Source of the DNA: an uncultured Clostridia bacterium
GTDB taxonomy: Bacteria > Bacillota > Clostridia > Lachnospirales > CAG-274
Assembly: GCA_947632615.1 (NCBI GenBank)
Contig: CANRPW010000009.1
Coordinates: forward strand, 1 to 64,000
Length of the DNA: 64,000 bases
Direction: 5' to 3'
Under the pieces are notes generated by a model. The model ran no database searches. It was given only the letters and a program-made list of their open reading frames with translations, and was not told the DNA's origin. Position 1 is the stretch's first letter; every line of letters starts with the position of its first letter. The position numbers were made by a program, and so were the translations under genes. Shown in pieces: positions 55,062 through 64,000 of this stretch.

Positions 55062-55892
55062 TTATGACGTAGTTTCTGTAGTCTCCTTTAAATATTGCCT
55101 GCCCTCGTGATCCATATAATAATCCCCTCTGAGCACAAGCTCGCTTATAGGCACAAGCTCATACCCCTTATCTTTAAGCCCCTTAATAATGGTGTCAAGG
55201 CAGTCCGGCGTATATTTGGTATCATTGTGAAACAAAATAATAGACCCCGGGCCCAAATGCTTGTGATTTAAGACCTGATTTATCTCGTGCTCCGTCCCAT
55301 GCTCCTGCCAATCCAAGCTGTCGATGTCCCATTGTATAGCATAATAGCCACATTCTTTGGCGGCGGAGAGGACGGTAGAGTTGTATTCGCCGTAGGGTGG
55401 GCGGTATAGCTCCATGTCTATGCCTAAAAGGTCTTTTACCTTGTTGTGGGCTTTCATTATTTCCTCTTTGTTTTGCTCGAGAGAAAGCTGAGCGCCGTGG
55501 GGGTGGGTGGCAGAGTGATTGCCTATGTCGTGACCGCCCTCATACATCTTTTTGACCTCCTCGGGATATTTGTCCACCCAATATCCGCAAAGAAAAAATG
55601 TCGCCCGCACATCATTTTTTTCAAGTATGTCTAAAATAGTGTCAGTGTCGTCTGCTCCCCAGGCGGCATCGAAGGAGATGGCGATTTTGTTGTCGTTTCG
55701 GTTTACGCAGTAGATGGGGAGAGGCTTTTTGGCGACGGAAACGGGGACGGAGGGGGAGAGGGAGAGGGCTAATGGGCGAACGCCTAAAAAACCTGCCAGA
55801 CAGATGGCTGCAATGAGCAGAATATAGGTTAGGACAGGTTTTTTGGCGAGAGCTTTAAATAAATTTTTAAGTTTTGTTTTCATATGGAACAA
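55062..55892 (-). CDS. NodB-type polysaccharide deacetylase, PdaA/PdaB-like
   Basis: A 276-residue exported deacetylase with an N-terminal membrane anchor (ILLIAAICLAGFLGV). The NodB motifs are SFDAAWGADD (metal Asp pair), GHDIGNHSATHPH (metal His), RPPYGEYN, and ILFHND late. It probably removes N-acetyl or related groups from peptidoglycan; FDAAWG is typical of sporulation-type enzymes. A 97%-identical fragment of its central and C-terminal region lies at 59925-60388. Confidence 0.94.
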   Translation of the reverse strand: MFHMKTKLKNLFKALAKKPVLTYILLIAAICLAGFLGVRPLALSLSPSVPVSVAKKPLPIYCVNRNDNKIAISFDAAWGADDTDTILDILEKNDVRATFFLCGYWVDKYPEEVKKMYEGGHDIGNHSATHPHGAQLSLEQNKEEIMKAHNKVKDLLGIDMELYRPPYGEYNSTVLSAAKECGYYAIQWDIDSLDWQEHGTEHEINQVLNHKHLGPGSIILFHNDTKYTPDCLDTIIKGLKDKGYELVPISELVLRGDYYMDHEGRQYLKETTETTS

Positions 55893-56486
55893 CTCCTGTT
55901 TTTATTATAATAGTATTCTTGGTAAATATTATATATTTCTTTATTTTGTAAAAAGTGTTTTTTGCAAGCTCAGGGATCTATGGGGTGATATAGTATGAAT
56001 TACAGATTGGTTTAAGCTTATTTATATAAATAGAAGAAACAACAAAACAAAATAAATTAATTTTATACACAACTTTAATATTCATAAAAATTTTTATGGA
56101 TAAATAGGGTAAAATTTATAAAATATACTGTAAACTTAATTGACTTTATGTACAATTTATGCCAACAAAAAATCAAAAAATACCCCTTTTTGACAATTAT
56201 AAAAAGGGGTTTTCATTGGTGTGCCCCAAAACATATAAAATCAACGGGTCAATGAGAAGGGCGGCGTTTTCGGACACCCGGCGCTGCTTGGGGAAAATAT
56301 TTATATTAACTGGTGCAGATATAGCCGGAATGTGGTTAGTTCGGTTGTTTCGGCTTATCTGTTAATTTTATGGAAAGGGTAAATGAATAACCGGCTGCTT
56401 TTGCGGTTAAACACTTATTATCGGGGTGAAGAGAAGAATGTCATTAAAATTTTCTGCCCTGCGCCCTTCGGTCGGCGGACAGATTT
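55893..56486. other. 594-bp gene-free stretch with one hairpin
   Basis: Strongly A/T-rich up to about 56215, then mixed. The only structure is the stem CCCCTTTTT/AAAAAGGGG (56183-56209) followed by TTTTC, a possible intrinsic terminator with no gene in front. No ORF with a ribosome site and typical composition is present; 56220-56480 may be decayed coding sequence. Confidence 0.5.
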
Positions 56487-58691: not shown

Positions 58692-59405
58692 ATGAAAAAA
58701 ACTGTATCATTAATTTTAGGTTCATTACTTGCTTTAAGCCTGTGTTTTTCCGCTTATGCGGCAACGGATACAGGTGAAAGAATGGTAACAAAAGCAGAGC
58801 TTGAGGCTGCGGGTAAAGGCCCCGACTCCGTAAACTGGCGTTATCAGGAGGACTATCTTGCAAATAAGCCCATTCCCGAATCTATGCTTATATATAAGTC
58901 CAAAACAGCCCCCGCCGCTGCTCCCGCCGTTTCTGCCACAGGTGAAAAAATGGTAACCAAGTCAGAGCTTGAGGCTGCGGGTAAAGGCCCCGACTCTGTA
59001 AACTGGCGTTATCAGGAGGACTATCTTGCAAATAAGCCCATTCCCGAATCTATGCTTATATATAAGTCCAAAACAGCCGCTGCCGCTGCTCCCGCTGTTT
59101 CTTCCACAGGTGAAAAAATGGTAACCAAGTCAGAGCTTGAGGCTGCGGGTAAAGGCCCCGACTCCGTAAACTGGCGCTATCAGGAGGACTATCTTGCAAA
59201 TAAGCCCATTCCTGAGTCAGCACTTATTTACAAGCCCAAGGCTTCATCTTCATCATCTTCATCATCCAAATCAACCTATACGCCAAGCAGTAAGGGTCTT
59301 CTGGGAGATATTTTAAGTCCGATATCCGATCCTCTCACAAGTACGTTTGACGCTATATTCGGAAAAGGTGCGGCTGAAAACTATCTGAAATACGGTCATG
59401 TATAA
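58692..59405 (+). CDS. Secreted protein with three near-identical 56-residue repeats
   Basis: A 237-residue protein with a Sec signal peptide (cut after CFSAYA). Three tandem 168-bp units start at 58773, 58941 and 59109; each encodes GE(K/R)MVTKSELEAAGKGPD, then SVNWRYQEDYLANKPIPES and an Ala/Pro/Lys linker. A Ser-rich stretch and a C-terminal segment (GLLGDILSPISDPLTSTFDAIFGKG) follow. AGGGAGG precedes the ATG. The DNA units differ by only a few bases. The function is unknown. Confidence 0.9.
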   Translation: MKKTVSLILGSLLALSLCFSAYAATDTGERMVTKAELEAAGKGPDSVNWRYQEDYLANKPIPESMLIYKSKTAPAAAPAVSATGEKMVTKSELEAAGKGPDSVNWRYQEDYLANKPIPESMLIYKSKTAAAAAPAVSSTGEKMVTKSELEAAGKGPDSVNWRYQEDYLANKPIPESALIYKPKASSSSSSSSKSTYTPSSKGLLGDILSPISDPLTSTFDAIFGKGAAENYLKYGHV

Positions 59406-59912: not shown

Positions 59913-59941
59913 AAAAGCCCTCCCTTAAGGGGAGGGCTTTT
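59913..59941. terminator. Terminator between the small membrane gene and the deacetylase fragment
   Basis: Perfect 12-bp arms AAAAGCCCTCCC (59913-59924) and GGGAGGGCTTTT (59930-59941), loop TTAAG. T-runs on both strands allow use in either direction. Confidence 0.85.
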
Positions 59942-60388
59942 CTGTTGCTTCTTCATTATTTTCTTCTTTCAGAAACTGCCTTCCCTCGTGATCCATATAA
60001 TAATCTCCCCTAAGTACAAGCTCGCTTATAGGCACAAGCTCATACCCCTTATCTTTAAGCCCCTTTATAATGGTGTCAAGGCAGTCCGGCGTATATTTGG
60101 TATCATTGTGAAACAAAATAATAGACCCCGAGCCCAAATGCTTGTGATTTAAGACCTGATTTATCTCGTGCTCCGTCCCATGCTCCTGCCAATCCAAGCT
60201 GTCAATGTTCCATTGTATAGCATAATAGCCACATTCTTTGGCGGCGGAGAGGACGGTAGAGTTGTATTCCCCGTAGGGTGGGCGGTATAGCTCCATGTCT
60301 ATGCCTAAAAGGTCTTTTACCTTGTTGTGGGCTTTCATTATTTCCTCTTTGTTTTGCCGGGGAAAAAGCTGAGCGCCGTGGGGGTGGG
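59925..60388 (-). pseudogene. Truncated second copy of the NodB deacetylase gene
   Basis: The frame from about 60388 to 59925 repeats residues of the deacetylase at 55062-55892 from the HPHGAQL motif to LKE with about 97% DNA identity, then has its own tail (EENNEEATEKPSP). Everything upstream of the HPHG motif, including the metal Asp pair, the signal anchor and a start codon, is missing. At 60389 the sequence changes abruptly to very A/T-rich DNA. It reads in the same orientation as the full gene. Confidence 0.88.
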
Positions 60389-60513
60389 AGGTTGTAAGAG
60401 AAGAAATAATAATATAATAAATAAAATAATTTTTTTAGCATAATATAATAATATATAGGCATAATACACTGAAATAATTTATATATTATTTTATGTTATT
60501 ATTGCAATATATA

Positions 60514-60543
60514 TTGACATCTTTTTTTGAAGCATAGTATAAT
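60514..60543 (+). promoter_or_regulatory. Promoter of the TIR gene
   Basis: TTGACA (60514-60519), an 18-bp spacer and TATAAT (60538-60543). The predicted start near 60550 leaves the ATG at 60560 without a leader, which favours the ATG at 60596. Confidence 0.75.
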
Positions 60544-60595
60544 ATAAGGAGATAATATTATGGATTATTTGTATAAATGTGGAAGGAAAATTAGT

Positions 60596-61642
60596 ATGAA
60601 AGTTTTTATTAGTTGGTTTGGTACACGAAGCAAAAAAGTTGCGGTAATTTTTCGTGATTGGCTTCCCACAGTAATTCAAGCTCTTGATCCATTTGTATCT
60701 TCAGAGGATATTGAGAAAGGTTCAAGGTGGAATACGGATATTGCCCAAGAATTAAAAGAGGCTAAATTTGGCTTAATATGTGTAACAAAAGATAATTTGA
60801 ATTCACCTTGGTTAAATTTTGAAGCCGGTGCTTTGTCAAAAACAATTGAAAATAGTTATGTTGCCCCAATTCTTTTTGATGTTAAACCTTCAGAATTAAC
60901 AGGCTCGCCAATATCACAATTTCAAGCAACTTCATTTTCTGAGGAAGATATGAAACGATTGGTAGAAACATTAAATACTGCAGCGGGAAATTGTCTTACG
61001 AATGCCAGATTAAATAAAGCCTTTGAATTATGTTACCCAGATTTAGAGAAAAGTCTAAATAACTTAAAAGAAGACCATTCAGAGCATAATGATGACAAAA
61101 GCACTGATGATTTGCAGTTAAATTCAGATATTCTTGAAGAACTGTTGGAAGTATCTCGTAATACACAAAGACTTCTTGGCAATACAGATACAAAAATATA
61201 TAATAATATTAATCAGCTGCAAAAAAGAATCGAAGATATTATTCCTAATATTGAAAAAAAGATTGATATTGGAAACAGGCGGATACTACGTAGGGGTAAT
61301 CCTGCATTAATGGAAGACATGATTTTTTATTTTCTTTATATAGATAGCGAATCAGATAATATTTTTCCATATAATATTTTGATAGTTCTTTCGTTTTATA
61401 AAGATGCTTTGCCTTGGTTATATGATGCAGACAGTGATTTAGTTAAAGTATTGGAATCAAAGGCTTCTGATGAAATTAAAGAAAAAGAAATAAACAAATT
61501 TAAAAGTATTATTGATTATACTTGTAGTAATCCCGCTGTTCGTGAAATGTTTGCTTATAGGAAAGATATTGTGATGCTGCTTAGAGAACTTCCATCTTAC
61601 TTCTCAAAAATATTAGACAAATTAAGAATAAAAATTGAATAA
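60596..61642 (+). CDS. TIR-domain protein with unknown C-terminal domain
   Basis: A 348-residue protein. Residues 1-135 are a TIR fold: MKVFISWFG (betaA), VSSEDIEKGSRWNTDIAQEL, KFGLICVTKDNL and SPWLNFEAGALSK, with E76 at the position of the NADase Glu. Residues 150-348 are helical, with a coiled-coil-like stretch (about 180-220), and match nothing I know. GGAAGG lies 9 nt before ATG 60596; an ATG at 60560 also has AAGGAG. Base composition is far more A/T-rich than the neighbours, suggesting recent transfer. Bacterial TIR proteins commonly act in anti-phage defence by NAD+ depletion; that role here is inference. Confidence 0.88.
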   Translation: MKVFISWFGTRSKKVAVIFRDWLPTVIQALDPFVSSEDIEKGSRWNTDIAQELKEAKFGLICVTKDNLNSPWLNFEAGALSKTIENSYVAPILFDVKPSELTGSPISQFQATSFSEEDMKRLVETLNTAAGNCLTNARLNKAFELCYPDLEKSLNNLKEDHSEHNDDKSTDDLQLNSDILEELLEVSRNTQRLLGNTDTKIYNNINQLQKRIEDIIPNIEKKIDIGNRRILRRGNPALMEDMIFYFLYIDSESDNIFPYNILIVLSFYKDALPWLYDADSDLVKVLESKASDEIKEKEINKFKSIIDYTCSNPAVREMFAYRKDIVMLLRELPSYFSKILDKLRIKIE

Positions 61643-61701
61643 TCTCATATGAAAAGTCAGTAAAAAAGTATAAATATTTAAAATTATTATAATTTTTAAC
61701 C

Positions 61702-61740
61702 GGTCGGTATACAGCAATTCAAACTGTATACCGACCTTTC
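61702..61740 (+). terminator. Terminator of the TIR gene
   Basis: Perfect 13-bp arms GGTCGGTATACAG (61702-61714) and complement (61724-61736), 9-nt loop, then TTTC. Confidence 0.8.
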
Positions 61741-61743
61741 TAT

Positions 61744-62019
61744 TTACACTATACTCAACTCTTCACCAAACCTATAAACATTATTACTCAGCACATCCTG
61801 CCCGGACACAATACCCCTATTTACATTCCTAAGCATATTTTTTGTATATTCGGTATCTATTGTGCTGCATGGCACGATGATGGACTCATTTATCGATGTA
61901 GGGATAACATAAAAATTCTCTCCCGGCTGTGTTCTTATATCCTTTAGTATATCATCATACAAGATGTAAGAAGCTCCCTCCATAGATATTTCATTTGAGT
62001 TATATACATAGGCACAGAC
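61744..62019 (-). pseudogene. C-terminal remnant of a DUF5688-like gene
   Basis: An open frame of about 90 codons (CAYVYNSNEISMEGASYI, then ILKDIRTQPGENFYVIPTSINESIIVPCSTI, and a late EDVLSNNVYRFGEEL-like end reading GQDVLSNNVYRFGEEL). The pattern resembles the C-terminus of DUF5688 proteins of Lachnospiraceae, from memory. The frame is closed upstream by a stop at 62020-62022, and no ribosome site precedes the internal ATG. The rest of the gene is gone. 62020-62138 holds nothing recognisable. Confidence 0.6.
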
Positions 62020-62138
62020 TTATCGTTTTGAAGCCGAGGGTGTTCTGCTTGTCATAAGCTGTACTACAAGAGCAAAGCTCGGATTTGTGGAATAAAACGA
62101 ATCGCAGAGCGGTAAAATGTTCAGATTTTTTGCTTTAG

Positions 62139-62167
62139 TTGACAAAAAAATATATAAATATTATAAT
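62139..62167 (+). promoter_or_regulatory. Promoter of the dynamin-like gene
   Basis: TTGACA (62139-62144), a 17-bp spacer and TATAAT (62162-62167), 35 bp before the ATG. Confidence 0.85.
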
Positions 62168-62202
62168 AATTACGAGTTAATAATTAAAAAAGGAGGTATT
62201 TT

Positions 62203-64000
62203 ATGAAGAATATTACATTAAAGGAATTGCAGGATCTTGTAGAGGACAGCACAAAATTGCTTAAATATGTGGTGAAAATAGATTCGGGGCAGGACATAGA
62301 AAAAATAAATAAGGCCTGTGAGGACATAATGGGTTCTCTGAGGAAGGTCATAATAGCGAACGAGCTTCAGGAAAGGCAGATAATATGTATATCGGGTCTT
62401 CAGGGAGCAGGCAAGACAACGCTTATGCAGAAATTTTATGACATACCCGAAAATATACTCAATATTTCAATGGGACAGGGCGAGAGGATACCCATAATAA
62501 TACATGAAAGCAAAGAATGTAAAAAAAGCATTGAAATGTATACAAGGGAGCTTGTAAAGGAAAATAATGAATATTCAGTAAGAAGAAGAGAAGTAGAAAG
62601 CGATGAATTCATAGAGGCTTCAAAGGGAAGTAACAGCATAAACAGAAATATCACCACAATGTATCTGGAGTTGAGTCTGCCTTACAAGTACATAAAAAAC
62701 GAGATAACAGCCTTTATGCTTCTGCCGGGATTCGAAAAGAAGCATGATTACTGGAGAAACCTCATTGATTTTTCTATCAAATGTTCAGATGCTGCTGTAT
62801 TTGTGTTCAATGAAAGCAGCTTTTCAAGGGCTGATAACGCAGTAATACTGGACGAAATAAAGAAAAAATTCGAAAATAATCTTATTTATGTTATATCACG
62901 CGCAGACCAAAGTCCTGATGACAACAAAGAGGTAAAGAATACGTGTATAGAAACTATGAAGATACCGTCTGCAGAAAAGGACAGGGTCGTTTGTACAGGC
63001 ATATATCCTGAAGACGAGAAAAATGAAAAATGGCGCAAACAGTTTATGGATGCTATTGACAGATACTGCAGACCTCCGTTAGACTTTCAGGGAAAGTGCT
63101 CCGAATACATATATAAAGAAATGGAAAAAATCATCAATAAAATAGATGAAATACAAACTTGTGTAGTCGTAGACAAGGAAATACAGCTTAAGAAGGAAAA
63201 TTCAGGAATATTAGAGGCTTTTGACAAAAAAACTGAAAAGGGAAAGAAAATGTTTAAAAAAAATATTGAAGATGCAGTACTGATGGCAGAAAACGACAGC
63301 CTTAAAAAAATAGAACAATATTTTAAAGAAACGACTACAAAGGGTACGCTGAAAGGTATAAAGCGTGCGATATTCGGAGAAAGTGCAAAGGATATAATCG
63401 AACTGAAAAATGTTGTACTGGATTCACTGAACGACGATTCGGGAAAGCCCTATATATACAGGAGTCTTATAAAATCTGCAGACAATGTAATAGGCTCTCT
63501 GCAGGACAATAATACAATAAAAAAACACATTCTTACGGACGGTACTCAGGATAATATTTCAGATGAAGAAGCGCGGAACACTCAGCTATACGAGGCAAAA
63601 AATGAATATGTTATGGATATAGCGCATTTTATTGACGGAAACAACAATGATGAGCTTAAAAGTAGTATGGAGGAACTGGCACAGGGTCTTGCCGATATGA
63701 CGGCATACTATTATACCCAGAACATGATATACTGTGTTAATCCCGAGTGCGGCAAAGGCATAGAGCTTGAAAAATCCCATCTTACACTTGATCAGATCGT
63801 AAAATCAGCCAAGGACACAAAGTTGTTTGGCGCAAGTATTTTAGGACTTGTAGCAGCAGATGTTGTAAAGGACGGCGAACTGAACGGCATTGCTGCCATA
63901 GGAAAGGCGCTGAATATCCCTTCAGGTGTTCTTTTTGCCGGTACAGGTGCATTGCTTGCGCTGGGAGCAGGTACGGCGATAACAAGGGATCTTAACCGTA
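62203..64000 (+). CDS. Dynamin-like large GTPase (partial, runs off the window)
   Basis: The open frame continues past position 64000 (at least 599 codons); AAAGGAGG lies before the ATG. An N-terminal helical part (1-60) is followed by a P-loop GLQGAGKTT (65-73), ERIPIII as the switch I region, LLPGF (173-177) where dynamins have DxxG/DTPG, and SRAD (232-235) in place of T/NKxD. Long helical stretches follow, a Cys pair CVNPEC near 511-516, and Ala/Gly-rich hydrophobic segments (about 541-555 and 574-590) that could insert in membranes. The layout fits bacterial dynamin-like proteins. The Asp-to-Leu change in G3 would be expected to weaken or alter hydrolysis. It is next to a TIR gene but has its own promoter. 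Confidence 0.8.
   Translation, partial: MKNITLKELQDLVEDSTKLLKYVVKIDSGQDIEKINKACEDIMGSLRKVIIANELQERQIICISGLQGAGKTTLMQKFYDIPENILNISMGQGERIPIIIHESKECKKSIEMYTRELVKENNEYSVRRREVESDEFIEASKGSNSINRNITTMYLELSLPYKYIKNEITAFMLLPGFEKKHDYWRNLIDFSIKCSDAAVFVFNESSFSRADNAVILDEIKKKFENNLIYVISRADQSPDDNKEVKNTCIETMKIPSAEKDRVVCTGIYPEDEKNEKWRKQFMDAIDRYCRPPLDFQGKCSEYIYKEMEKIINKIDEIQTCVVVDKEIQLKKENSGILEAFDKKTEKGKKMFKKNIEDAVLMAENDSLKKIEQYFKETTTKGTLKGIKRAIFGESAKDIIELKNVVLDSLNDDSGKPYIYRSLIKSADNVIGSLQDNNTIKKHILTDGTQDNISDEEARNTQLYEAKNEYVMDIAHFIDGNNNDELKSSMEELAQGLADMTAYYYTQNMIYCVNPECGKGIELEKSHLTLDQIVKSAKDTKLFGASILGLVAADVVKDGELNGIAAIGKALNIPSGVLFAGTGALLALGAGTAITRDLNR

Follow-up and report, generated by a model that had tools for sequence, protein, structure and literature searches.

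For the TIR gene described here, the closest precedent is the three-gene system of the P2-like phage AC1, made up of 2TM, 1TM and TIR genes, a clone of which gives E. coli C protection from lambda, LF82_P8 and P2, and for whose TIR protein a nucleotide messenger was suggested (Rousset et al. 2022, PMC9122126). For the dynamin-like genes beside it there are several precedents. DynA of B. subtilis delays lysis and in this way has an anti-phage effect (PMC8844932), and by analogy it may serve as a model for the mechanism of the operon described below, although DynA joins two dynamins in a single chain and the likeness is taken at the level of the superfamily. Eleos (LeoABC) has two dynamin-like proteins in tandem, Cj-DLP1 and Cj-DLP2 of Campylobacter are dynamin G domain proteins encoded by paired genes in one operon, and BDLP, mitofusin/Fzo1 and IniA have the dynamin G domain in common with them.

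The window (the whole stretch of DNA analysed, 64,000 nucleotides, being the first 64 kb of a 90626-bp contig of an uncultured Clostridia bacterium) carries a TIR gene and, 560 bp away in the same orientation, the first gene of a dynamin operon. Our reading, to which we give a probability of roughly 0.6, is that each is an anti-phage module in its own right, acquired horizontally, and that the two have come to adjoin in a decayed and variable region, with mechanisms as proposed below.

The TIR gene and its relatives

The TIR open reading frame can be read from 60560 (360 aa), the start taken in a first-pass annotation made from the sequence alone, but the start is likely to be 60596, since it is there that the relatives and the family model begin, with GGAAGG just upstream; the gene then spans 60596–61642 on the + strand and encodes 348 aa. 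Upstream lies a sigma-70-type promoter (TTGACA-18-TATAAT, 60514–60543, + strand) that matches the consensus hexamers at 12 of 12 positions, a match that by itself is no proof of function. Downstream, at 61702–61736 (+ strand), is a 13-bp hairpin (-22 kcal/mol, z -8.0), a probable terminator with a weak T tract that failed the T-run rule of the terminator scanner.

The protein consists of a TIR domain (residues 1–135; Pfam TIR_2, 2.6e-9), a long helix and a helical C-terminal domain, the last being the domain flagged in the first-pass annotation, present in the predicted structure and common to the Firmicutes relatives. The PADLOC model TIR-TM matched residues 13–331 of the long reading frame at 7.2e-92, and the meaning of that model was checked by scanning the three AC1 genes, which matched the models 2TM-TIR, 1TM-TIR and TIR-TM. 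The AC1 TIR thus matches the same TIR-TM model, which places the TIR of the window in one family with the TIR of a validated system. The match covers nearly the whole model, the TIR parts of the two proteins are 48% identical and the invariant glutamate motif is the same, whereas the C-terminal region is more diverged from that of AC1 and is the one shared by the Firmicutes relatives instead.

A profile search of the TIR protein against PDB sequences gave no useful match. The AlphaFold2 (AF2) model, mostly confident for residues 1–135, placed this part among TIR folds, with matches to SPARTA (Z 13.0, rmsd 4.4, 142 aligned), SARM1 (Z 12.3, rmsd 2.7, 120 aligned) and SpbK (Z 12.1). Glu76 (E88 of the long reading frame), in the motif W-x-x-F-E, was invariant in 30/30 relatives, and from the motif we take it to be the equivalent of SARM1 Glu642. 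The plausible NADase glutamate of the first-pass annotation was thereby borne out: with a glutamate of catalytic type and a TIR fold, the protein is a candidate NADase, for which cleavage of NAD+ upon infection is inferred from the family.

A further difference from AC1 lies in the gene's company. No 2TM or 1TM gene adjoins it, there being no + strand reading frame of at least 80 aa between 59405 and the TIR gene, and 3' of it are just a DUF5688 remnant and then the dynamin operon. The TIR is a new member of a known family, and assignment to the full 2TM-1TM-TIR system was not made. Its relatives are solitary too: among 80 on viral contigs, only 2 had detectable AC1-like 2TM and 1TM partners and 78 had none, a count from which small, fast-evolving membrane genes could have escaped, and those in two further genomes (G058, G518) and in two E. 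coli lambdoid (pro)phages also stand alone. On viral contigs the TIR gene of this validated three-gene system is thus mostly solitary, which makes the sufficiency of the TIR directly testable.

In the order to which the host belongs the family is rare (5/295 genomes). The nearest sampled homologue (G642, 47% identity) lies 3' of genes that read as phage tail, holin and endolysin, an apparent prophage, and directly upstream of genes for ThsA (1.6e-61), ThsB (4.9e-67), HamA (3.1e-113) and HamB (E 0), i.e., of Thoeris and Hachiman.

The dynamin operon

The first-pass annotation placed a dynamin-like GTPase 560 bp from the TIR gene, and both the distance and the dynamin nature of the protein held, although the gene is cut by the window end and its status as a GTPase is less plain. 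As the contig runs on to 90626, the gene could be traced past the window edge, and the advice to look beyond 64000 proved sound: it is the first of a three-gene operon, A-B-C, spanning contig 62203–67104. The operon has its own consensus sigma-70-type promoter (TTGACA-17-TATAAT, 62139–62167, + strand, 12/12 match), and the same promoter stands upstream of the homologous operon in a genome of a different genus (G027). Protein A (688 aa, 62203 to contig 64269, + strand) has its first 599 aa inside the window (62203–64000), dynamin B (655 aa, contig 64223–66190) shares 47 bp with the end of A when read from its first start codon, and the third gene (contig 66187–67104) encodes protein C, of 305 aa.

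That A has a dynamin G domain came from structure. Pfam Dynamin_N alone scored under the cut-off for A, NCBIfam (June 2026) had no family above cut-off for it, and profile searches of A and B against PDB sequences gave no useful match. With a predicted model reliable for the G domain only (mean pLDDT 53.9), Foldseek returned a list dominated by dynamins, headed by IniA (best E 1.3e-10), Fzo1/mitofusin, the Campylobacter pair, MxB and BDLP, with LeoA lower, and in VIA the Z scores were 18.9 against Fzo1 (222 residues, rmsd 3.8) and 18.7 against IniA. On this predicted structure the G domain clearly falls in the dynamin superfamily.

The two dynamins differ at G3. Where dynamins have DxPG, A has LLPG in 17/17 sequences, and B carries a GxxQxGK[TS] P-loop and LD[TL]PG in 17/17. 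A is accordingly classed by its fold as a dynamin whose G3 motif is degenerate, to which GTPase status is not assigned, and the contrast suggests a split into one degenerate (A) and one active (B) GTPase. In protein C, a single strong membrane helix at the C terminus is combined with a coiled coil of variable length; the variation comes in 14-residue repeats, of which G027 has nine motif copies (L013:11079-12422) and this genome about one (L004:11187-12104). Between these two operons, sliding dN/dS was lowest in the G domains (0.16–0.46) and reached about 1.1–1.4 in the window after each of them, a pattern that is only suggestive, coming from one pair and short windows.

Of the described systems, Eleos likewise has tandem dynamins. 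Dynamin_N matched B at E 0.001 in 14/17 sequences, and some B proteins are weakly similar to LeoA (6/17) or LeoBC (4/17, best 1.2e-13), but in this genome B matched neither Leo model at E 0.001 and A neither at E 1, the third gene here encodes a coiled-coil protein with one membrane helix, and A has no DxPG. From the Campylobacter pair, BDLP, mitofusin/Fzo1 and IniA the operon differs by a sequence identity of about 10–15% and by its G3 asymmetry, and the part of the Campylobacter literature consulted reports no third coiled-coil gene for Cj-DLP1/DLP2. The operon is a variant of paired bacterial dynamins not described before; no paper on it was found in the open-access literature, and as a defence system it appears undescribed.

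The trio is patchy, lying in islands and on plasmids, with no fixed core position. It was present in 3/392 genomes of the order, and its A and B coding sequences are about 89% identical to those of G027, vs 67–73% for the other genes compared, which argues for recent horizontal spread. A contig profile search with A1 found nothing, and one led by the Pseudomonas A found 18 further loci in named proteobacterial genomes, with the A-B-C order resolved in most; this order recurs in Firmicutes and Proteobacteria. Plasmids of Klebsiella, Enterobacter, Pseudomonas and Gluconobacter also carry the trio. E. coli has a full-length A in five genomes, a truncated A in one and only its first 61 bp in two; on several chromosomes the trio follows two small genes near ydeT, and sister genomes keep the first part of A but then carry an ABC-three-component system or a HEPN/Toprim gene instead. 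Genes for AbiTii, HamA and restriction lie near this site, type I restriction-modification near the trios of G002, P. boanensis and Gluconobacter, and AbiD, AbiH, DruH and Fic near others. The neighbours, 94 of which were scanned in bulk with PADLOC, had no matched control set. Some plasmid loci adjoin heat-resistance or sugar-use genes.

Proposed functions and alternatives

In the mechanism that we propose for the TIR module, infection would trigger the helical C-terminal part, the TIR domains would then assemble, and Glu76 would drive the cleavage of NAD+, which would lower NAD+ or make a signal, with the infected cell halting before phage release. For the trio, phage defence is probable on the grounds of its neighbours and mobility. 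We put forward more tentatively, at a little under even odds, that it is an undescribed anti-phage system with a membrane-anchored heterotypic pair of dynamins, in which C would anchor A and B to the inner membrane, its variable-length coiled coil setting the membrane distance. The pair would assemble where membranes are damaged or remodelled at a late stage of infection; B would hydrolyse GTP, A, which has no G3 Asp, would be its regulatory, nucleotide-binding partner, and the pair would delay or block lysis, much as DynA does in B. subtilis. If the trio does defend against phage, it is a widespread but rare paired-dynamin system reaching from Firmicutes to Pseudomonas and Klebsiella plasmids, and its asymmetry would offer a built-in test of the division of labour in heterotypic dynamins.

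One alternative, that TIR and dynamin operon together make up a single defence system in which a TIR signal acts on membrane-bound dynamins, drew on their adjacency and shared orientation and on an analogy, as the AC1 TIR works with membrane proteins. We rejected it as very improbable on the evidence of neighbours and promoters: each has its own 12/12 consensus promoter, the strong hairpin and the DUF5688 remnant lie between them, and the trios of two related genomes, G027 (~89% nucleotide identity) and G002, occur where there is no TIR of this family. No TIR of the family was found near the 18 trio loci (Citrobacter has a TIR protein of another kind, PDC-S66/ThsB-like, some 9 kb away from its trio), neither A nor B in the 80 viral TIR loci, and no A in five other TIR-bearing genomes. 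The first-pass annotation had seen the separate promoters and allowed that the systems may be independent, and these observations support independence; a functional TIR-dynamin unit finds no such support. It had also named what would speak against its candidate locus, namely relatives with the GTPase in a fixed core position without TIR, and TIR homologues that never neighbour dynamins; this is for the most part what was found, since trios without TIR do exist, and the two were never paired across the 18 loci and 80 viral TIRs, but a fixed core position is not what the trio has (3/392 genomes, islands, plasmids). The adjacency is best explained by chance, the two modules having arrived separately in the same unstable region.

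With the modules taken separately, a doubt attaches to each. The activity of the TIR family is known with 2TM and 1TM partners, and without them the TIR may have no activity or may depend on a partner encoded elsewhere. That it makes a messenger for an effector encoded elsewhere, on which it would depend like ThsB on ThsA in Thoeris, has in its favour the position of the G642 homologue directly upstream of ThsA and ThsB and the messenger proposed for the AC1 TIR (PMC9122126), but we think it unlikely, as no effector gene, ThsA included, adjoins the TIR and one ThsA model, run with no positive control, had no match in this genome. Less likely still, the TIR is what remains of a multi-gene system, decayed or inactive: the AC1-type partners are absent alongside and the region is full of truncated duplicates, yet the reading frame is intact, with a consensus promoter and a terminator-like hairpin, and the viral, genomic and (pro)phage relatives listed above are equally solitary. 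Bacterial dynamins also have roles in membrane repair and vesiculation, and the trio might, as proposed for LeoABC or IniA, serve in membrane stress or vesicle release and be mobile for other reasons. LeoA/LeoBC, among the studied relatives, are tied to vesicle release, IniA is among the best structural matches to A, and the plasmid loci beside heat-resistance or sugar-use genes would fit; that genes for restriction and abortive infection are repeatedly near it in hosts unrelated to each other, and that at one site in E. coli it is exchanged for defence-type genes, makes this somewhat unlikely, although it is the alternative to which we would give most weight.

The surrounding region

The gene series is flanked by a kinase region on one side and by two giant surface-protein genes on the other. 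The left edge of the TIR insert is formed by a truncated polysaccharide deacetylase gene (Pfam Polysacc_deac_1, 59925–60391, - strand), correctly recognized as such at first pass; its 5' end is missing and, by repeat comparison, it is 95% identical to 55082–55510, within the intact gene at 55062–55892. The DUF5688 remnant seen at first pass (61755–62067, - strand) is there as well, matching model positions 204–288 only, but it has a second copy, 98% identical, beyond the trio (contig 67635–67948), so that two copies flank the operon; both are C-terminal fragments, and DUF5688 has no other match in the genome. Duplicates and inserts make up a mosaic here, decayed and variable, and the earlier description of a hot spot for defence or mobile genes was largely right, both modules being defence-like and horizontally mobile.

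Several further features of the region were noted. Just past the second DUF5688 copy is a transposase-gene remnant (contig 67979–68766), with copies in the same genome (G000:C4) and in the sister species G005. The giant surface proteins (contig 70743–80837 and 81492–89939; about 3,360 and 2,815 aa) are paralogous, with His/Cys-rich HTHTDDCY-type repeats and an LPETGG-like end, and a 5' relic of their genes adjoins the deacetylase at window 56007–56449. A secreted-looking protein encoded at window 58692–59405 has three tandem repeats of 56 residues (168 nt, 77–95% identical). Serine-recombinase elements seem to use the interior of the deacetylase gene (window 55062–55892) as an attachment site: in G005 the deacetylase is split (G005:C15:476-717 and G005:C58:663-1086) at window position about 55322–55327, a large serine recombinase adjoins one of the halves, and the deacetylase copy of G008 ends at the same base as the G005 split.
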